Made by a program: the position numbers and the translations under genes | The notes under the pieces: model-generated | What the model was told of the DNA's origin: nothing | Seen by the model: the letters and a program-made list of their open reading frames with translations, nothing else | Database searches by the model: none | Source of the DNA: Chitinophaga sp. LS1 | Lineage (GTDB): Bacteria > Bacteroidota > Bacteroidia > Chitinophagales > Chitinophagaceae | Length of the DNA: 64,000 bases | Reading direction: 5' to 3' | Assembly: GCF_034274695.1 (NCBI RefSeq) | Contig: NZ_CP128362.1 | Coordinates: forward strand, 4,094,501-4,158,500 | Shown: piece after piece, positions 30,167 to 38,909 of the stretch | How the letters are laid out: every line of letters starts with the position of its first letter | Position numbering within the stretch: the stretch's first letter is position 1

Positions 30167-30212
30167 ATAGCCCGGTCATGGTTGGATTTTCTTCCAACCA
30201 TGACCGGGCTAT
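30167..30212 (-). terminator. 20-bp terminator after the macroglobulin-plug gene
   Basis: The 20-nt arm at 30167-30186 pairs exactly with 30193-30212 across a 6-nt loop. Read on the minus strand, a T-run follows, so it ends the operon that finishes at 30224. Confidence 0.85.
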
Positions 30213-30223
30213 ACCCCCCTCTT

Positions 30224-33200
30224 TTAAGGAATAATTTCTACTGTTTCTCCCGGCTGCCAGTACTTATCTTCCGGTTGATAATACAGGTAACCCGCACCTG
30301 CCTTACCCTGATAACTTCCTGGCACCTCTACTTTCAGATCCAGCGCTACTTTCTTCATTTCTTTTGCTTCCATACCTCTCCAATAGAATACCAGGTAGTT
30401 GTCAAATATTTCATAATAGGCCACCTGCTCTTTGTCCATCAATTCTTTCAACTGCCATGGTTGTAAGGATAATCCTCCGGGAATACCGATTTTTACCACA
30501 GCCATCCCTTGTGCCTCACGACTGGTATTGGTCACATTGATATGCATGCGCACGGTTTCACCCACCTTCCCGGTATGTGAACTGAGCATGGTTTGGAATT
30601 TCAATACCGCCCTGTCACTGGTAGGAGGCGTGTTGGTAAAATAATCACAGCGGAAAGTGTAAGGTATTCCCTCCGGACCCGGGTATTTCACAGAAAAGTT
30701 ATTCTTATTACTCAGGTAGTTGGTAGATACGCTTGCAGCTGGTGTAACAGCATGTCCATTCAGGGTAAATGTGCCCTTCTCATCCCCACCTGATTTTTCC
30801 ATATTGCTGTATGCCACCATTGCTGTCAATGCCATAATAGTACCTTGTGTAGAGCCAAATCCGTAATAACTCTTTTTGGTAAGAATGGTGGAAATCAGTT
30901 GCGCAATCCGCGCCTTACGGGGTGCAGGCTCGCGCATCAATGCCATAGCGTACAGGGACATTGTTTCAACATATAGGGATATGCCCTGAGAACCGACAAC
31001 AGTTGTGCGGGCGGTTACCTGGCCGTCTTTGAACAATTTATCCAATCGCTGCATCAGGTCATTAAAATCATCTGTTTTATGCAGGTTGGCTGCCGCCAGT
31101 GCCATGATGGCTAACTGATAGCCATCGTTGCTTGCCTGCGCGGCTTTCAGGGTTGTTGTATATTCTAATGGAATCTGCTTACCTGCATCTGTTTGTGACA
31201 GTGCATACACGATATAGGCATTGGCAACATCAGGAGGTACGGCACGGAATTGATCATAGCCTCCCGGAGAGGGTTTGAATGCTCCCTTGCCATCACGGTG
31301 GTCCAACAGGAACTTTTCTGTTCTGTTCAGCATCGCCTTGTCTACAGGTATAAACTCTTTCATGGCGGTGAATTCCATTAATCCATAGGCAGTGAGTGCC
31401 ACATGTGCAGGCGCATGTCCAAACCATTCAAATCCGTTCTCATTTGTCTCGAAACTGATCAGTCGATCGTATCCTTTTTCCAGTAGTGCCCTTGCTGTCT
31501 TTTCCAGTTCATAATCCCGTTTGGCGGCATTTTTCAGTAACTGCAAAATGAGAATATTCGGATACGTGCTGCTGGATGTTTGTTCAAAACAACCATATGG
31601 CTCACGCAGCATACTCTTTATACCATCCATGAGTTGTGCACCTACGGTATGTAGTTCAAGTGACATTTCCGGGTTGAAAAATCCTCCCACACCAGAAAAA
31701 GTGAAGGACGTATCCTTTGACTGATTTCCGGAGAAGACTACATGCATTGGGAATTCTTTTTCTTCGACCGTAAATGGCAGGAAGATCGCCTGGCTATCCA
31801 CATTGATACGGATGTTGCCAGACATGGCATGTTTAGGTTTTACTTCGATATACAACCGGGCATCTCCATTTTTTGTCACAGGTACTTCTTTCAGCGTAGT
31901 ATCGCCATCTACCTCAGGGGGCAATTGGATACGTACACGCGCCACGATGTCACTGAAGCTATAGTTTTTTAACACGATGGGGATCTTCACATTGTCACCT
32001 GCATTGATGTAAGGAGGAATTTTTGCATCCACACTCACTGCATCGTGTACGGCATAGGTTTGTTCTGCCCTGCCAATAGCGCCATTGTAGCCAATGCCCT
32101 CCGTAATAGCTCTAAAGGTGGTGCTGGCATCTGAATTATAAAACTCAACAGAGGCTTTACCATTTCTGTCTGTTTGTATGGTAGGATTCCAGTAGATCGT
32201 TTCCCTGAAATCGTTTCTTTCATTCGTTTCCGGTGTGAGGTATTTAGGTGCATAGAAAACAGGTACCTGTGTAAAGATCTCATTGAGACCCGGAGTTTTA
32301 ATTTTTTTAACGGAGTAGTTATTCGATTTTCCCAGTGATATACGAATCCTGTCTGCATACCTTTTATCTTTGGTCGTGATCAATATCACGCCATTTGCGC
32401 CCCTTGAACCATATATAGCTGTGGCGGAGGCATCTTTCAATACAGTGAGCGATTCTATATCATTTGGATTGAACTGGTTGATATTTGTCAGCTCGGTTGG
32501 TACGCCATCCACGATGTACAAGGGAATACCATTCGGGTTTAAAGAATTGATGCCACGTATCTGGACGCTGGTTCCGTATCCGGGATTGCCGGTGGCTGAC
32601 TGAATATTTATACCTGCCGCTTTCCCATTCAATGCAGATGCAATTGAACCGGGAGTCATGAGTGCTTCCGCATTTATAATGCTGACGGAGTAGCCTAATG
32701 TCCTCCTTTCCTTACTGATACCTAATGCTGTTACCACCACCTCATTCAGGGATTTGCTGTCATCTGCCCATTTCAGGTCGTTGATGACCAATGAAGGATA
32801 TGCTGCAATACTTTCTTTCAATCCTGTTTTCAGCGGCTTGAACATGCCCGCTTCCTGTTTATTAAAACCAATACCATTTTGAGAAACATTGATATTGAGT
32901 GTATCTCTATGGTTCTCTGCTTCACCCATCAGGCAATAATCAGTGCCGGCGTCTACATCAGAGAAAAAGAATTGCCCGTTGGCCGAAGTCCTTCTCACTA
33001 CACCGGTATGCCTGCTTAGATTAAACAAATAGAGTTTACTTTTTACAGGCATGCCTTTACTATCTGTCACCATACCACTCAGGATATTTAACTTGTCAGG
33101 TGTGAAAGCAAGCCTGTTACCGCTGTTGACGATATCTGTAAAAGCAAAGTAACGGTAACCCTGCGTCAGCATCAACATATCAAGGGCACTGTCAGCTTTG

Positions 33201-34675
33201 GGTTCATCCTGTTTGAAATAGAACTGGGGTTCTTCTATCTTACCACGTAGCTCACTGCTCATAAGCAACCAGGAGAGAATATGATCCTGCTTGTCATCAG
33301 CCATGGTCCAAAGCTTGTCGTCAATGACAGTCAGCGATAGATTAGCTGGTATAGCCAGGCCTTCGGCATTCGTAGTGGTAAGGGTCATTTTTACTTTTTC
33401 CCTTGGCTGGTAACTGCTTTTATCTGTCGTGATGTTTACATGCAGCACATTGTATTTATTCAGAAATATCACTCTCTCTGCTACTTTGAGCCGACGGCTG
33501 TCACGCAGGGTGAAGCTGGCAATACCAGTCGGGAAATCTGCCGTATCGATTTTAATTAATTGTGCTCCGCTGTGTAAGGTGGCATTGGTGGTATAATAAA
33601 CATGTTCCCGCACAGTGGCCGTGAGTGTGATGTCTTCGGCAGCAGTCGTACTTATTTTGGCATACAGTTGTCCATTCTTATGCAGCATGTTGAGTACGAT
33701 GCCATTCGGGGTGGACAACGGTAATGGATATTTTTTATCAGATACGAGTGCGTAATATTTTCTGCCCACAGCAGGTGTAAAAGGGATACTGCCCATACCT
33801 CCGTGATAACTGGCAAATGCAGCCACCTGCTGGCCTTTGTCATCACAGATCGTACCGTGTACGTCTACAGGTTTGCCATATTCGTTAATCGCTTTGAATG
33901 CTAATATCGTAGGCAGGCCCGCAACAAAAGTGCCTCCCTCCGGCATGAACTGAAGGTCAATGTTATTCAGCACAATTGGGATACTCCTTGAAATAGATTC
34001 AGTAAAGCCACTGTTGGTGATCGTTACATTGAGCAATCCATCATTCGTGCTGAGTGATGCAGGCAGTACAGCCCTGATGGTCGCCTTGCCGGCGGTATCT
34101 GTTTTGAAATTATCCGCTTTGTACTGCTTACCTTCAATATTGATGGTGAACTGGCCGGTATAGTTTCGTAAAGGTTGATTGTCTGGCGTGCGTACGGAGA
34201 ACTTTGCCCGGATGGTATCGCCCGGCCCATAGCCTTTTTCGGGGAAATCCAGTTTTAGCAGTAACCTTGGGGCGATCACCTTTTGCAGGGTAACAGATTT
34301 CGTAAACCAGGTACTGTCTTTTTCATTCTGCATCCAGGTGGTATATGCCTTTATCTTATAGATACCTCCGGGCAGATCTTCAGTAAATTTATACCCTCCT
34401 TCACAATAACCAATAGTAATAGGGTGTTTCAGTTGGGCCAGTACACTGCCTGCAGGACTAATGATATCTACATTGAGAATAGTACTGGTCAGTGTCGGTG
34501 TGTTTTTTTGCGCATCTACTACATAGGCTTTATAGAAGAGTGTTTCACCGGGTACAAAGTACACATGGTTCGTTTGCAGGTACACTTTTTCTTTGGTAGT
34601 TGCATAATCCTGTACCTGTGCCTGTACAGACAGGTGGAGCAGGCAAAATATAATGGAGCTTATTATTTTCTTCAT
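30224..34675 (-). CDS. Alpha-2-macroglobulin-like protein with internal SusC plug
   Basis: From ATG 34675 the protein has 1483 residues and a signal peptide (MKKIISSIIFCLLHLSVQAQ). Residues about 20-530 are macroglobulin-type beta domains (KVYLQTNHVYFVPGETLFYK). About 545-625 is a carboxypeptidase-regulatory-like domain (LSGMVTDSKGMPVKSKLYLF). About 640-775 is a complete SusC-type TonB plug (SLNEVVVTALG, VQIRGINSLNPNGIPLYIVD, DASATAIYGSRGANGVILIT). The A2M domain follows (about 820-920), then a thioester motif GCFEQ (C1029 to Q1032, the CxEQ pattern of bacterial macroglobulins) and the C-terminal domains. No beta-barrel is present. It starts 4 nt after a SusC-like barrel gene that lacks just these SusC modules. 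A protease trap or surface factor docking into that barrel is my inference. Confidence 0.85.
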   Translation of the reverse strand: MKKIISSIIFCLLHLSVQAQVQDYATTKEKVYLQTNHVYFVPGETLFYKAYVVDAQKNTPTLTSTILNVDIISPAGSVLAQLKHPITIGYCEGGYKFTEDLPGGIYKIKAYTTWMQNEKDSTWFTKSVTLQKVIAPRLLLKLDFPEKGYGPGDTIRAKFSVRTPDNQPLRNYTGQFTINIEGKQYKADNFKTDTAGKATIRAVLPASLSTNDGLLNVTITNSGFTESISRSIPIVLNNIDLQFMPEGGTFVAGLPTILAFKAINEYGKPVDVHGTICDDKGQQVAAFASYHGGMGSIPFTPAVGRKYYALVSDKKYPLPLSTPNGIVLNMLHKNGQLYAKISTTAAEDITLTATVREHVYYTTNATLHSGAQLIKIDTADFPTGIASFTLRDSRRLKVAERVIFLNKYNVLHVNITTDKSSYQPREKVKMTLTTTNAEGLAIPANLSLTVIDDKLWTMADDKQDHILSWLLMSSELRGKIEEPQFYFKQDEPKADSALDMLMLTQGYRYFAFTDIVNSGNRLAFTPDKLNILSGMVTDSKGMPVKSKLYLFNLSRHTGVVRRTSANGQFFFSDVDAGTDYCLMGEAENHRDTLNINVSQNGIGFNKQEAGMFKPLKTGLKESIAAYPSLVINDLKWADDSKSLNEVVVTALGISKERRTLGYSVSIINAEALMTPGSIASALNGKAAGINIQSATGNPGYGTSVQIRGINSLNPNGIPLYIVDGVPTELTNINQFNPNDIESLTVLKDASATAIYGSRGANGVILITTKDKRYADRIRISLGKSNNYSVKKIKTPGLNEIFTQVPVFYAPKYLTPETNERNDFRETIYWNPTIQTDRNGKASVEFYNSDASTTFRAITEGIGYNGAIGRAEQTYAVHDAVSVDAKIPPYINAGDNVKIPIVLKNYSFSDIVARVRIQLPPEVDGDTTLKEVPVTKNGDARLYIEVKPKHAMSGNIRINVDSQAIFLPFTVEEKEFPMHVVFSGNQSKDTSFTFSGVGGFFNPEMSLELHTVGAQLMDGIKSMLREPYGCFEQTSSSTYPNILILQLLKNAAKRDYELEKTARALLEKGYDRLISFETNENGFEWFGHAPAHVALTAYGLMEFTAMKEFIPVDKAMLNRTEKFLLDHRDGKGAFKPSPGGYDQFRAVPPDVANAYIVYALSQTDAGKQIPLEYTTTLKAAQASNDGYQLAIMALAAANLHKTDDFNDLMQRLDKLFKDGQVTARTTVVGSQGISLYVETMSLYAMALMREPAPRKARIAQLISTILTKKSYYGFGSTQGTIMALTAMVAYSNMEKSGGDEKGTFTLNGHAVTPAASVSTNYLSNKNNFSVKYPGPEGIPYTFRCDYFTNTPPTSDRAVLKFQTMLSSHTGKVGETVRMHINVTNTSREAQGMAVVKIGIPGGLSLQPWQLKELMDKEQVAYYEIFDNYLVFYWRGMEAKEMKKVALDLKVEVPGSYQGKAGAGYLYYQPEDKYWQPGETVEIIP

Positions 34676-34679
34676 GGTA

Positions 34680-37145
34680 TCAGAATGAAATGGATGCTTC
34701 AATACCTGCGTTGGTAGTCGCTGGCAGGTTAAAAAAATCAAGGCCGGTGGTGTTGCCCGGTTCGAGCAATGACTGATCGGGGTCAACGCCTTTGTAGGGA
34801 GTCCAGATCAGCAGGTTACGCACAAATGCCGTTACCTTCAGTTTGTTCACATACCCTCTGAAACTGTGGTCCAGCGAAACGGAGATATTATTGATGCGGA
34901 TAAAATCTGCACGTGCTATATAGTTCTCCGCTACAGGTGTTTGTGGCGTAGTTTCTGATTTCCGTTGTGCGGCAGAGCTGGCAGAGCGTCCGTAATAATC
35001 GAGCATGGCAGCTGTACCATTCCACTTTTCTCCTCCTTTTTTCCACATCCAGCTTAGGTTGAGCGAGAGCGATTTATAAGAGAGGTAATTGCTCATGCCC
35101 AACATGAAATCCGGGTTTGGATTGCCCAATACCCTGAGTTGAGGATCTACGACAGGATTGCCATCTGTGCCCGTCACAATCTGGTGATTGGCATCGCGCA
35201 GGTAAGCGCTACCCACGATCACATTGGAAGGGGCACCTGCCACAATAGCTGTATATACATCACTGAAACCCGCAGTAGGCGTATAGTTGTACCCATCGGT
35301 CACTGATTGAATACGGTTTTTATAGGTGCTGAACGAAAGTGAATTCCGGTAATTGATCGTCTTACCACCAATCCGGAACCTGTTGCCATGTGCGAGTTGT
35401 ATTTCCAATCCTTTGGTAACGTGATCCGCTACATTTTGGAGCAGGATCGTATTGTTACTGATCACGGGCAATACATCATGACGGGTAGCACGTATATAAT
35501 AGGATGCATTCAGGTTGAAGGTGCCATAATTAACTTCCAGGTCATTGGACCATTCCCGGTGATAAACAGGTCGTAAACCAGTAAAGCGGCTCGCTTCCAT
35601 GATGGGCAAAAAACCTGTTGCTGTCGTGGTGGAATAATTGAACAGGTTAATAGCCGCTACTGACTGATTGATGGGCAACTCGCTGTTGAAATGATGAAGC
35701 TTTGATGTTAATTTTGCTGAGGACCATTTGCTTCCGATCTTCATTGATTTCTTTGCGCTGAGAGCAGCAAGGGGCAGCCAATAACTTTGTTTGTCCGCAG
35801 TATTGGAGATGTATACTTTATTGCCCAGGTCCATGTTGAACTCCCAACCAGAATAGGTGCGTAGACCTGTACTATAACTCAGAATAGGTTCATGTGTGAT
35901 ACGCTTATATTTATATTCCGGCAATAATCCCAGGTACCTGATATCTGTGTGCACATTTACATAATCATAGCTTAGGTTAATCCAGGAATATGTCTGCTTA
36001 TTCAGTATTGTTGGCAATTCAAATCTTACATTGCCCCTTGTCTGAAAAGTCAGGTCATTTTGTCGTCTGCGGGTAATATTGCCATTTGTAAACCCGGTAG
36101 TACCCGGTGCATAAGCTTCTGTATTGTTAGTACGATTGGCCTGAATAGATGGTGCCAGGCTGTATGAAATCCGTCCCGTGTTATTTTCCAGTTTAAAACT
36201 GGCATTGTGGAATCGTCTGGCATAATCATTATCATGATCCTGTAGTAAAAACAGTGGATTATCTGCACCGTTGCTATAGCTACGCTGCGTATTGCCGATC
36301 ATGGTGCCTTGTTCATTCTGAAAACTCACTGGTGTCAATAGTGAATATTGATACACCCTGTTCAGCAATCTGTTCCTGTTAGCATAGTCAAACCGATCTA
36401 CCCCATAATCATATTTGAGGGTGAGTTTATTATTATTCATCTCATGGCTGAGTGCCAGTCCTCCATGTTGGCGCAGGTTATCATTTTGACTGATAATACT
36501 TTTATCATTTTCCTGGCCGGCTTTTAAGTATAGGTCCCATGGTTGGCCTCTTAACGCGAAATAGCTTACTTTGACAGAGATGTCGTTTGTAACGGCCATG
36601 CCTGTTCTCAGGATACTATTATTATATACATTGGCTGCCTTTCCGTTGCCGCTGCCTTTCATCACCAGTTGTCCGTTATTGTCCCAGGCGTAATGACTGC
36701 CATCATATTCAAGCGTAGAGATAGCGGGTCCGTAACTGAACAGGGTACCCGTTTCCGGACCTATATATTGATTATTGAGGCCTTGTGCATATTGTTGTTG
36801 CAGGGCGGGAAGACGGTTGGCCCAGCTCAGCGCTGCGCTGGTTGTAAAATTGCCTGAAAAGGTGAGGCTTCTGGCCCTGCTGATCACAAATATCTGATTC
36901 CTGCCTACTGTAATCCTGCGCGTGGATGCAGGGTACGAAAGATCTCCCTGCACCTGCATCTGATCTCTGTTGGCACTGCTGTTGGGCAATGAAAAATAAG
37001 TACGTGGCGTATCCACCTTTTTCACCAGCCGGATATAATCCTCATTTGTCTGGGCGGTGGATATTATAGGTAGCAATAATAGGAGTAAAAAATATTTCAA
37101 GGTAGTCAGTTTGGAGGTATGATGCTGAAAAAAGCAGAATTGCAT
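34680..37145 (-). CDS. Plug-less SusC-like outer-membrane barrel
   Basis: The 821-residue protein has a signal peptide ending LPIISTAQ, then only about 50 residues before barrel strands begin (LTFSGNFTTSAALSWANRLP, the position just after the plug in SusC). It ends with the SusC C-terminal pattern (VRNLLIWTPYKGVDPDQS ... FFNLPATTNAGIEASISF). The carboxypeptidase-like domain and plug of a normal SusC (about 1000 residues or more) are missing. The reading frame is otherwise intact, so this is not a simple frameshift. ATG 37145 is the annotated start; the TTG at 37100 would give a neater signal peptide ([17 protein letters not shown]). The macroglobulin-plug gene follows after a 4-nt gap, so the two are co-translated. 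Without a plug the barrel would be an open pore unless filled in trans. Confidence 0.82.
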   Translation of the reverse strand: MQFCFFQHHTSKLTTLKYFLLLLLLPIISTAQTNEDYIRLVKKVDTPRTYFSLPNSSANRDQMQVQGDLSYPASTRRITVGRNQIFVISRARSLTFSGNFTTSAALSWANRLPALQQQYAQGLNNQYIGPETGTLFSYGPAISTLEYDGSHYAWDNNGQLVMKGSGNGKAANVYNNSILRTGMAVTNDISVKVSYFALRGQPWDLYLKAGQENDKSIISQNDNLRQHGGLALSHEMNNNKLTLKYDYGVDRFDYANRNRLLNRVYQYSLLTPVSFQNEQGTMIGNTQRSYSNGADNPLFLLQDHDNDYARRFHNASFKLENNTGRISYSLAPSIQANRTNNTEAYAPGTTGFTNGNITRRRQNDLTFQTRGNVRFELPTILNKQTYSWINLSYDYVNVHTDIRYLGLLPEYKYKRITHEPILSYSTGLRTYSGWEFNMDLGNKVYISNTADKQSYWLPLAALSAKKSMKIGSKWSSAKLTSKLHHFNSELPINQSVAAINLFNYSTTTATGFLPIMEASRFTGLRPVYHREWSNDLEVNYGTFNLNASYYIRATRHDVLPVISNNTILLQNVADHVTKGLEIQLAHGNRFRIGGKTINYRNSLSFSTYKNRIQSVTDGYNYTPTAGFSDVYTAIVAGAPSNVIVGSAYLRDANHQIVTGTDGNPVVDPQLRVLGNPNPDFMLGMSNYLSYKSLSLNLSWMWKKGGEKWNGTAAMLDYYGRSASSAAQRKSETTPQTPVAENYIARADFIRINNISVSLDHSFRGYVNKLKVTAFVRNLLIWTPYKGVDPDQSLLEPGNTTGLDFFNLPATTNAGIEASISF

Positions 37146-37256: not shown

Positions 37257-37285
37257 AAACTGCCTGTCGGTCGGACAGGCAGTTT
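37257..37285 (-). terminator. Terminator after the 532-residue protein gene
   Basis: AAACTGCCTGTC pairs with GACAGGCAGTTT across a 5-nt loop. On the minus strand a T-run follows. It separates the 37.3-38.9 kb gene from the split SusC operon. Confidence 0.8.
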
Positions 37286-37310: not shown

Positions 37311-38909
37311 TCAGGGCTGTAACCATACTACTCTTACTCCTTTGTGATCCGCAGTTTTATCCATTTTCAGGGTAATAAATCTGCCTTTATCACTGTCGTA
37401 GTCAGATACGCCCATCACCAGTGGGTGGCCGTCATCATCCTTATTAATATTTAAACCGAACAGTGGTGTGTAATCCGGCAGCTCATTGTTAGCATCGCAT
37501 ATATAATAGTATCCATCGGTATCTCTCGCATTGTTGAACCCTTCTCCTTTCCCTTTGGCAGCTTTCTTCATGTTGGCTTCCGTATTGTTCATGGTCACAT
37601 ACACCCTGTCTTTATACTGGAAGCAGGCATAACCCCTGTATTGTTCACCTTTGATGAGCGGTTGGGCGCTACGGGATACTCTCTCTGTATTGAAGGCATT
37701 GATTTCCCAGTTACGCAACTCCGCATGTCTTGGTATCACGCAGCTATAGGTTGGTTGTCCGTTTACATCAAAAGATGCCACTGCCAGCCAGTCCTTCACA
37801 CAATACAGATAAGAAGCGGCATTCAGTGGTTTTACCTCTCTGCGGGTCAGTTCTTCATAGATAATAGAGAAACCGCCATCGCTGCGTACAAAGATGTTCT
37901 GTGGCATACCTGTGAACGCTCTGCCTGCGAGGGCCATTGTCTTCTCATTGGCTTTGGCCGGGAAGATGTCTATTTCCTGATCAGGAATTTGTCTGGTAGG
38001 ATCTACGAAACCAAATATACCTGCATATTTTTCTTCATCACCAGCTTCTGCATGTGCATAACCGATGAATAAGATCTTTTTGGTAACAGGGTTATACCTT
38101 ACGAGTCCGCTATCGATCACTTTTTTTACACCGATATTCAGTTTGTCGAGTGTCAGTGTATCGACGGTTTTGGAAAGGGTGGCCATGATGAGCTGACCTT
38201 TTTTATCTCCTACCTGCGTCTGGTTGTAAAGATGTGCGAAGAGACATACTTTCTCATCGCCCAGTACAACCATATCCAGGTAGTTGATATTTTTATAGCG
38301 GGTATCGCTGTTCGCGTAATAGGCTCTTGAAATCTCCTTGTGGTTGCCGTTGTACCAGATCATTTCCAGGTTGCCGTTTACCGTTTGGTCATTGTTGTGC
38401 AGTATCACCAGTGCATAGTTATCACTGTTTGGATCTTTGCGCACAAAGAAGGAGGTAACAGGGTCGTACTGGGTGATGAATGGCTGGGCAAAGTAAGCGT
38501 ACCGGTTTGTCATGGCCATTTTCTCATCTCTCCTGATATTGCCTGTATTACCATCAATCACAATGCGGTATAATACCGGTTGTCTGGATTCTATTTCTGA
38601 AATAAACAGCACGAGGTCGTTGTTCGTTTCAAATAATGCATTGACACAACTGCCAAGGAGCGTACCAAAGTTTGTACTCAGGTGAGTCTGGGCTTTGGGT
38701 TTATTGTCATCGTCATAGATGTCTACATACAGCCCATCTCTGCTGGTGATCTGCAGAAAAATGGTATTGCCATTTTTCATGTGCAGAATACGGGCGTAAC
38801 CAGAAACCGGTTCTTTGAAAAGAGGGCTTTGGGATACGTTAGTTAATTGTGCAACGGCTGTTAAAGCCAGCATGATTACGAACTGGATAATCAGGAAAAT
38901 TTTTTTCAT
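37311..38909 (-). CDS. Secreted protein of unknown function (532 aa)
   Basis: I do not recognise this protein. It has a signal peptide (MKKIFLIIQFVIMLALTAVAQ). The body consists of repeating beta-strand blocks such as GNTIFLQITSRDGLYVDIYD, NDLVLFISEIESRQPVLYRI and NYALVILHNNDQTVNGNLEM, which look like blades of a propeller. There are no obvious catalytic motifs and no lipobox. It is flanked by its own terminators, so it is a single-gene unit on the same strand as the plug-less SusC and macroglobulin-plug genes. Location suggests a periplasmic or secreted role. A link with the neighbouring split receptor is possible but unproven. Confidence 0.75.
   Translation of the reverse strand: MKKIFLIIQFVIMLALTAVAQLTNVSQSPLFKEPVSGYARILHMKNGNTIFLQITSRDGLYVDIYDDDNKPKAQTHLSTNFGTLLGSCVNALFETNNDLVLFISEIESRQPVLYRIVIDGNTGNIRRDEKMAMTNRYAYFAQPFITQYDPVTSFFVRKDPNSDNYALVILHNNDQTVNGNLEMIWYNGNHKEISRAYYANSDTRYKNINYLDMVVLGDEKVCLFAHLYNQTQVGDKKGQLIMATLSKTVDTLTLDKLNIGVKKVIDSGLVRYNPVTKKILFIGYAHAEAGDEEKYAGIFGFVDPTRQIPDQEIDIFPAKANEKTMALAGRAFTGMPQNIFVRSDGGFSIIYEELTRREVKPLNAASYLYCVKDWLAVASFDVNGQPTYSCVIPRHAELRNWEINAFNTERVSRSAQPLIKGEQYRGYACFQYKDRVYVTMNNTEANMKKAAKGKGEGFNNARDTDGYYYICDANNELPDYTPLFGLNINKDDDGHPLVMGVSDYDSDKGRFITLKMDKTADHKGVRVVWLQP

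Follow-up and report, generated by a model that had tools for sequence, protein, structure and literature searches.

We observed that, in the window (the whole stretch of 64,000 nucleotides of Chitinophaga sp. LS1 that was analyzed), a SusC-type β-barrel protein without a plug is encoded next to an alpha-2-macroglobulin (A2M), related to the complement and protease-trapping proteins of animals, into which a SusC-type plug is inserted. A plugless barrel with an A2M-plug neighbor is found in many Bacteroidota. The pair is probably a TonB-dependent transporter divided between two polypeptides, with the plug provided in trans from a periplasmic A2M. TonB-dependent transporters are regarded as single chains that hold both barrel and plug. 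Indeed, barrel and plug domains together formed the definition in a Pfam survey of 34,893 of these transporters (as given in excerpts of PMC6434023). In open-licence PMC we found no paper on an A2M with a plug or on a split transporter, although papers on the plugs of these transporters may mention one in passing.

The barrel and its A2M neighbor

The features of the barrel gene and of its 5' flank were as follows.

37257..37285, (-): hairpin resembling a terminator, upstream of the two genes; stem of 12 pairs followed by a T run; one of three sites with at least 12 pairs
34680..37145, (-): SusC-type β-barrel protein without plug; 821 aa ORF (TIGR04056 C-terminal part; AlphaFold2; Foldseek)
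37050..37145, (-): presumed signal peptide, residues 1-32 (by eye from the sequence, no predictor)
36870..37049, (-): short linker, residues 33-92 (alignments; low pLDDT)
34683..36869, (-): 22-strand barrel domain, residues 93-821 (AlphaFold2; family profile against 5fq6_B)

The Pfam scan of the barrel returned nothing at E<=1, and thus neither a Plug nor a CarboxypepD_reg (NTE) match, in agreement with the sequence-only reading that both domains are missing. The only significant NCBIfam match was to the SusC model TIGR04056 (residues 541-821 on model positions 672-981, E 1.2e-21), so that the protein does end like a SusC, as had been claimed. In the AlphaFold2 model (pLDDT 86.4, pTM 0.81) the N-terminus was disordered and was followed by 22 long strands. 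The prediction is a complete 22-strand SusC barrel, with no folded part of its own chain in the lumen. With this model, the top seven Foldseek matches were all chains of BT2264, a SusC that has been solved with a peptide (PDB 5FQ6/5FQ7/5FQ8). The family profile of the barrel aligned to residues 168-984 of 5fq6_B (BT_2264), 984 being the last residue there.

The linker occupies the position of the SusC NTE domain, TonB box and plug, and residues 1-72 of the barrel protein had a pLDDT <50 (one residue excepted). The earlier view that the signal peptide leads almost directly into the strands was right about the absence of a plug but not about the directness, since the two are separated by some 60 residues (33-92) of poor order, a stretch too short to form a plug. 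Q32 was invariant in the family alignments A1 and A3, as was Y37 in the linker of the family alignments. When 17 barrels were aligned, the TonB box columns were nearly empty (ten N-termini were also read), and the plug columns were mostly poorly filled. No paralogous plugless barrel was seen in the same genome, where the other 20 match rows lay in open frames of at least 1010 aa.

The features of the A2M gene and of its 3' flank were as follows.

30224..34675, (-): A2M with inserted SusC-type NTE, TonB box and plug; 1483 aa ORF, ATG at 34675 (Pfam, NCBIfam)
33101..34618, (-): N-terminal macroglobulin (MG) domains, residues 20-525 (PF01835 MG2 at 30-124; AlphaFold2; Foldseek)
32876..33088, (-): CarboxypepD_reg-like (SusC NTE-type) domain, about residues 530-600 (PF13620 at 532-578, E 3e-4, below the gathering score)
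32720..32749, (-): TonB box LNEVVVTALG, residues 643-652, within a disordered linker (pattern in relatives)
32303..32764, (-): SusC-type plug, residues 638-791, the TIGR04056 span (Plug, TIGR04056, TIGR04057, phmmer)
31931..32200, (-): A2M domain, residues 826-915 (PF00207, E 5.7e-9)
30809..31639, (-): thioester domain (TED), residues 1013-1289 (PF07678, E 2e-24)
31580..31594, (-): thioester motif GCFEQ (CxEQ), residues 1028-1032 (kept in 80/81 relatives)
30263..30514, (-): A2M receptor-binding-like domain (A2M_recep), residues 1388-1471 (PF07677, E 4.9e-5)
30167..30212, (-): hairpin resembling a terminator, directly downstream of the two genes; stem of 20 pairs, the longest in the region, followed by a T run

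This gene starts 4 nt past the barrel stop on the same strand. The sequence-only reading had placed both the missing plug and the carboxypeptidase-like domain in it, and the Pfam scan recovered the two, with the Plug match (residues 658-763, E 1.6e-16) lying between the MG and A2M domains. TIGR04056 aligned its positions 73-225 to residues 638-791 (E 3.8e-54), and the protein scored above the cut-off of the SusC signature TIGR04057. With the plug as the phmmer query, the best match was RagA (6sli_B, 75-229), and 5fq6_B was also matched at 17-177. As the barrel aligns to 168-984 of this same chain, the two proteins correspond to complementary parts of BT2264.

The MG2, A2M, TED and receptor-like domains were all present in canonical order. 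The bait-region family PF07703 gave only a weak match (409-453, E 0.031, below the cut-off), and the NTE-type domain and plug come next, before the A2M domain; the TonB box and plug are close to the bait-region position. In the AlphaFold2 model the MG blocks were mostly at pLDDT >80, the NTE-type domain had six strands, the plug was of moderate confidence (block means 53-77), and model residues 590-642 (610-662 of the protein) were below 50. Foldseek with this model led to C3/C5/A2M. A strict TonB box pattern was found in 72 of 81 A2M-plug relatives, the remaining 9 being close to it. The thioester motif, intact in the window A2M, was lacking in a single relative (L187).

Terminator-like sites numbered 11 on both strands of the region, against 7.3 (sd 2.8) in shuffles. 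No RNA structure was seen at the junction of the two genes (z 0.14). Among the five window proteins that were scanned, there was neither a SusD family match nor a further plug-bearing gene.

Co-occurrence and descent of the pair

The earlier reading had asked whether plugless barrels always neighbor macroglobulin-plug genes, and the genome searches answered in its favor. The barrel and the A2M-plug were found in the identical 15 of 294 family genomes (the barrel at E<=1e-60; in one genome, G148, on separate contig ends) and in the identical 4 of 395 phylum genomes. Gene order and strand were as in the window in 13/13 fetched relatives with enough contig, and 3/3 further genomes of the phylum scan had the same arrangement. 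In GTDB loci, which partly come from the same genomes as the family and phylum sets, the barrel gene was directly upstream of the A2M-plug gene in 78 of 80, the other two being at contig ends. The gap was at most 100 nt, or the genes overlapped, in 74 of the 76 measurable loci (165 nt in L173 and 1199 nt in L144). The split was seen again in genomes from three families (f1, f4 and f5) in the phylum scan, as well as in a Bacteroidales MAG, and the arrangement is therefore more than chance. A related A2M without a plug (G420) had no adjoining barrel and served as a negative control. No third conserved partner emerged at the 36 short-barrel loci (mostly Chitinophagaceae), where the other neighbor clusters each appeared in at most 11.

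All 81 A2M plugs matched both TIGR04056 and TIGR04057. Of 54 relatives of the barrel none matched Plug, while 46 matched TIGR04056 and 5 retained the SusC NTE domain. In a tree with 42 SusCs, 17 barrels formed a single clade (support 1.0), and the four SusCs closest to this clade by profile have kept their own plug. Barrels that stood alone or had a plug of their own had been named as evidence against the pairing; among the relatives examined in the family, phylum and GTDB sets none was found within the clade, and the relatives with their own plug were SusCs outside it.

Plug exchange and other plug-bearing proteins

In Chryseobacterium caseinilyticum (L183), an ordinary SusC encoded in the same genome has a plug that shares 66% identity with the A2M plug, and the two plugs grouped in the tree (100/99). 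The A2M plug was only 29-31% identical to those of the A2Ms closest by body, whose bodies were 85-89% identical. The edges of the replacement are near the TonB box and the plug end. A2M plugs have been exchanged with the plugs of ordinary SusCs. The L183 barrel has diverged as well (61%, against 89% between the barrels of the two neighbors nearest by A2M body). At another pair of loci (L155 and L174), the plugs differ (52%) and the barrels hardly do (92%).

Across loci, with the near-copy L121 left out, plug and barrel distances were correlated (partial Mantel r 0.385, p 0.001), but this signal is not specific, since the CTD (0.43) and MG7 (0.27) gave the same p. When the A2M was scanned in Chryseobacterium-type loci, the correlation with barrel distance peaked at the plug (0.65-0.71); without L183 it was 0.31-0.47 there and another segment was higher (0.53). 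In short-barrel loci it was about 0 at the plug and reached 0.53 at most, in another part of the A2M; with all loci taken together, the maximum (0.65) fell in the N-terminal MG part. The co-variation of plug and barrel is therefore mixed, and the scan favors it in Chryseobacterium-type loci alone, largely via L183.

Plugs were also seen in VWA/YfbK proteins of Bacteroidota. Of 12 short MG proteins, 5 had a degenerate plug, which scored 16-54 bits where those of the A2Ms scored 68-190. These resemble the A2M-plug in bearing a plug without a barrel of their own. However, the remaining 7 short MG proteins had no plug match >14 bits, and no plugless barrel was present in any of the 12 regions. In an MG protein, a plug-like domain alone therefore need not imply a barrel partner.

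The pair as a probable two-chain transporter

We consider that the first chain would be an empty 22-strand SusC barrel, and the second a soluble periplasmic A2M with its plug on flexible tethers near the bait-region position. The plug would enter the barrel from the periplasmic side and close the pore, and TonB, on binding the TonB box next to the plug, would pull it out and open the channel. The A2M body may be an anchor, gate or trap under the pore. The proposal of a two-polypeptide channel made from the sequence alone thus gains support from co-occurrence, from the complementarity of the two proteins and from the barrel model, while the plug-in-barrel complex, the role of TonB in transport and the periplasmic location of the A2M are what we infer from these. 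BT2264, the SusC closest to the clade, was solved with a peptide, and peptides or proteins would therefore be a first guess at the substrate.

The barrel might instead be a TonB-dependent exit through which the A2M or some other protein of the periplasm leaves; the plug would dock the A2M, and TonB would drive secretion or surface display. Oar of Myxococcus xanthus, a TonB-dependent transporter with a CarboxypepD-type N-terminal domain, is needed for secretion of the protease PopC and likewise works with a periplasmic protein, outward in that case; unlike the window barrel, it contains a plug domain of its own, which includes a TonB box (excerpts of PMC6434023). A multi-domain protein of 1483 aa would, however, be ill-suited to passage through a 22-strand barrel. 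A SusC plug has its two ends on the periplasmic side, which fits a periplasmic A2M. The window A2M had no T9SS sorting domain match (Pfam/NCBIfam), and a loose lipobox pattern fitted only 4/78 A2M N-termini, so that neither common surface route is indicated; we regard an exit route as unlikely. It is about equally improbable that the plug serves only for docking, of TonB or of some other partner, in a shared pathway where the barrel's own loops or linker close it. The barrel-less plugs of the short MG and VWA/YfbK proteins and the invariant linker Tyr would favor this, but the linker of about 60 residues is disordered in the model, a mere dock would hardly need its plug replaced by that of an ordinary SusC, and the A2M without a plug is also without a barrel.

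In Chryseobacterium, one barrel might be served by two alternative plug proteins, the A2M-plug downstream and an ECF-sigma-linked protein upstream (of VWA/YfbK type in several). In 32 of 80 loci, the strand of the barrel gene carries a plug-bearing ORF no more than about 5 kb upstream of it, and two such plugs (V_L174, V_L182) are intermixed with A2M plugs in the tree (starred forks). However, the upstream and A2M plugs showed no concerted evolution or overall likeness within a locus (p=0.12, 0/32 ranked first), the upstream genes may reflect general synteny, and the window has no such gene among the five proteins scanned; this arrangement seems rather doubtful. A second plug protein that could fill the barrel in Chryseobacterium counts against the two-chain reading. 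That the barrel is a broken or mis-assembled SusC is scarcely conceivable. Two loci (L064 and L126, probably one species) do have the barrel in two overlapping ORFs, but 75 unsplit barrel ORFs of 808-970 aa adjoin an A2M. A frameshifted or split SusC, which the sequence-only reading had already set aside, is ruled out by the position of the plug downstream, inside the A2M, and by the conserved arrangement.

Compared with the SusC/RagA transporters, of which BT2264 is nearest, the pair has all the parts (22-strand barrel, C-terminal pattern, plug, TonB box and NTE-type domain), but plug and TonB box are in the other polypeptide and the five window proteins include no SusD match. With bacterial A2Ms (ECAM/YfhM, Salmonella A2M) and C3/C5 the window A2M shares the MG, A2M, TED (with CxEQ) and receptor-like domains, and differs in its NTE, TonB box and plug near the bait-region position and in its constant barrel neighbor. 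The cork and barrel of FhuA, made separately, have been studied in E. coli (excerpts of PMC2615193). A split FhuA (Braun et al. 2003, as cited there) also has plug and barrel as separate chains, but it is a laboratory construct, whereas the present split is natural and its plug is part of an A2M. SusC plugs have been found missing from closed transporters; in the excerpts of PMC7782687 the authors suggest that TonB removes the plug as a whole, and deem spontaneous plug loss likely non-physiological.

If the two-chain transporter is real, its plug in trans would make whole-plug exit during transport directly testable, as plug and barrel could be expressed, mutated and labelled apart. More speculatively, and with a low but real chance of being right, the TonB pull that unplugs the barrel may also arm the A2M, whose TonB box and plug are near the bait-region place. 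The system would then be a pore gated by TonB and, right beneath it, a thioester trap that captures incoming peptides, proteases or other proteins covalently, and the plugs would be swappable cartridges from ordinary SusCs, common in Chryseobacterium to a second, ECF-sigma-controlled plug protein. A group of bacterial A2Ms would, if the pairing is true, gain a partner and a position at the membrane.

The gene pair in the window

The sequence-only reading had described a SusC-type barrel without a plug and, 4 nt on, a gene carrying that plug inside an alpha-2-macroglobulin (A2M)-like protein. Domain searches bore out both parts. Of the SusC model TIGR04056 the barrel matched the C-terminal third alone, and it had no Pfam match. 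The A2M showed MG2 (a macroglobulin, MG, domain), a weak CarboxypepD_reg, a clear Plug that carries the SusC signature, and A2M, thioester and receptor-binding-like domains. It shares 99% identity with the A2M of [Flexibacter] sp. ATCC 35208.

Features at the pair (window positions)
37311-38909, minus strand: 532-aa protein upstream of the pair, beyond the hairpin; no Pfam match
37257-37285, minus strand: terminator-like hairpin just upstream of the pair
34680-37145, minus strand: barrel gene, ORF, 821 aa
30224-34675, minus strand: A2M-plug gene, ORF, 1483 aa, 4 nt after the barrel gene
30167-30212, minus strand: terminator-like hairpin just downstream of the pair

As hairpins flank the pair and none lies within it on the minus strand (consensus scan, which found 11 sites against 7.3 expected), the pair has the appearance of a single transcription unit.

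The AlphaFold2 model of the barrel (76 sequences; pLDDT 86.4, pTM 0.81) had 22 long strands over residues 93-820, counted manually on the DSSP line, while residues 1-72 had pLDDT <50 save one residue. When the model was searched against the PDB with Foldseek, rows 1-22 were all SusC-type, and the top seven were chains of BT2264, a solved SusC (best E 2.2e-33; TM-score of the best match 0.70 by query length). A profile of 54 barrels aligned to residues 168-984 of the BT2264 chain 5fq6_B, 984 being the last residue (E 4.5e-36), and the A2M plug to residues 17-177 (E 1.7e-25); thus the two proteins together span one SusC. The best scorer for the A2M plug was RagA (E 2.3e-29). The model of A2M part 21-1005 (pLDDT 83.1, pTM 0.70) matched C3, C5 and A2M in Foldseek; the linker 610-662, with the TonB box, was disordered, and the plug was of moderate confidence (block means 53-77).

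Conservation of the pair and its controls

At E<=1e-60 the barrel was found in 15/294 family genomes. The A2M query matched in 25/294: 15 plug-bearing proteins in the same genomes as the barrel, nine short MG proteins and one remnant. The remnant, in genome G259, is a 493-aa C-terminal piece (L103:8011-9462, plus strand), and no barrel was found there at E<=1e-60, as if both had been lost together. Across 395 genomes sampled from the phylum, the barrel profile matched six, with four plugless barrels and two ordinary SusCs (G378, G444). The A2M profile also matched six: the same four, G420 with an A2M that has no plug, and a further genome with a short protein.

Whether plugless barrels always adjoin an A2M-plug gene had been raised by the sequence-only reading, and they largely did. 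Among 14 family relatives fetched, the contig was sufficient in 13, and the barrel led to an A2M-plug on one strand in 13/13; a 1.2-kb stretch separates the two in G247, and they lie on separate contig ends in G148. A GTDB genome scan gave 549 relatives, and in 78 of the best 80 loci the barrel gene was just upstream of the A2M-plug. Two of the 78 (L124, L134) are cut by contig starts; in the other 76 the gap was <=100 nt or an overlap in 74, 165 nt in L173 and 1199 nt in L144. The remaining loci were L161, whose contig starts inside the A2M, and L147, whose contig extends just 996 bp upstream of the A2M, with no barrel in that stretch. The family, phylum and GTDB sets share genomes and are not independent. 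GTDB hosts included Chitinophaga, Niastella, Desertivirga, Chryseobacterium, Epilithonimonas, Tenacibaculum, Aquimarina and one Bacteroidales MAG. The Niastella caeni barrel is in two overlapping ORFs of 772 and 160 aa (L126:7394-9924, plus strand); L064:7752-10282 (plus strand), split likewise, looks like the same genome.

Over the window and the 80 loci, all 81 A2M plugs matched TIGR04056 and TIGR04057, the TonB box followed the strict pattern in 72 (the remaining nine were near it), and the thioester motif was present in 80. No Plug match was found in 54 barrels at E<=0.01; TIGR04056 was matched by 46, and the SusC N-terminal CarboxypepD_reg domain was retained in five. Eleven of the 54 weakly matched the NCBIfam entry BamP, whose name denotes a barrel-assembly component.

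The G420 A2M (L115:8174-12880, plus strand), from another family of the phylum, has the same body, but its MG domains are followed by the A2M domain without a plug, and the surrounding 19.5 kb holds no barrel. The 12 short MG proteins inspected had a degenerate plug (16-54 bits) in five and none above 14 bits in seven, and no plugless barrel lay near them in the fetched regions; an ordinary plug-bearing SusC lies some kilobases away in L105 and L108. They are mostly about 820-970 aa; L120 is in two ORFs, and two are in the window's own genome.

Short MG proteins (short A2M domain preceded by a degenerate plug or by no plug)
L067:8086-10605, minus strand
L068:8624-11089, plus strand
L104-L108
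L116-L120

No other conserved neighbour of the pair was found in 36 short-barrel loci. The pair in Chryseobacterium-type loci is often preceded by an ECF sigma gene and by one more gene with a plug, again without a barrel of its own. In these loci the barrel may therefore also serve a second plug protein; within a locus, its plug was not similar to the A2M plug above chance.

Further plug proteins upstream of the barrel (Chryseobacterium-type loci)
L099:4891-7206, plus strand: adjoins the ECF sigma gene
L155:4586-7123
L157:4723-7131
L165:6070-7152: plug alone

Those scanned were otherwise VWA proteins with YfbK_C or a T9SS tail. Just upstream of another barrel, a 156-aa protein (L100:6623-7093, plus strand) carries the plug C-terminal motif twice in tandem.

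Origin of the barrel and exchange of plugs

Aligned with 42 SusCs (a narrow sample: 39 from the window's genome, two from G378, one from G444), 17 barrels occupied almost every conserved column beginning with the first strand, minus a few loop blocks. Filling was sparse in the TonB-box block and in most of the plug blocks; some plug blocks were filled because the alignment forces the short linker into them. The 17 barrels formed one clade (support 1.0; FastTree, midpoint root), with the SusCs of G378 and G444 as sisters; a SusD-like_2 gene neighbours that of G378. The four SusCs best matched by the barrel profile in 295 genomes of the class, including that of G378, all kept the plug. With one barrel clade and plug-bearing nearest SusCs, the simplest account is a single plug loss.

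The A2M plugs were not monophyletic. In plug trees of 140 columns with many forks open, the A2M label needed nine changes among 82 plugs (26 of 80 A2Ms), three forced by supported branches, and seven among 34 plugs (19 A2Ms), five forced. L183 was the clearest case: its A2M body is 85-89% identical to those of L176 and L182 and its plug 29-31%, whereas this plug shares 66% identity with the plug of a 995-aa SusC encoded in the same genome and grouped with it at 100/99. Its barrel has also diverged (61%, against 89% for L176-L182), and little-changed MG domains separate barrel and plug on the DNA. Two cases point the other way. Between L155 and L174 the plug is 52% and the barrel 92% identical. 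The L142 plug and its best own-genome match share 43% over full length, not closer than A2M relatives, and 58% over 99 residues. Statistics on plug-barrel co-variation gave a mixed picture: Chryseobacterium-type loci showed it, though less strongly once L183 was left out, and short-barrel loci did not.

A putative split transporter

In the most probable mechanism, an A2M located in the periplasm would push its tethered plug into the barrel from below, since a SusC plug has both of its ends on the periplasmic side, and the TonB box within the A2M would be the site at which TonB acts. According to PMC7782687, SusCD transporters that are closed have no plug in vitro; its authors consider spontaneous plug loss likely non-physiological, and nonetheless propose that TonB may take out the whole plug. 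The cork and barrel of E. coli FhuA have been made separately (Braun et al. 2003, as cited in PMC2615193). Because a BT2264 peptide complex is mentioned in PMC7782687, and BT2264 is the nearest solved relative, our guess is that peptides or proteins would be the substrate. The thioester motif (80/81) and a plug near the bait-region position prompt the speculation that the A2M might trap what passes the barrel.

The pairing of barrel and A2M-plug is real, and we found no description of an A2M-plug or a split TonB-dependent transporter in the open-licence literature searched. The pair would work like one TonB-dependent SusC transporter. A plug and a TonB box in cis are two defining features of the SusC family, and the barrel alone has neither. 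We therefore regard the pair as a new split variant of the SusC transporter, and do not file the barrel alone as an ordinary SusC.
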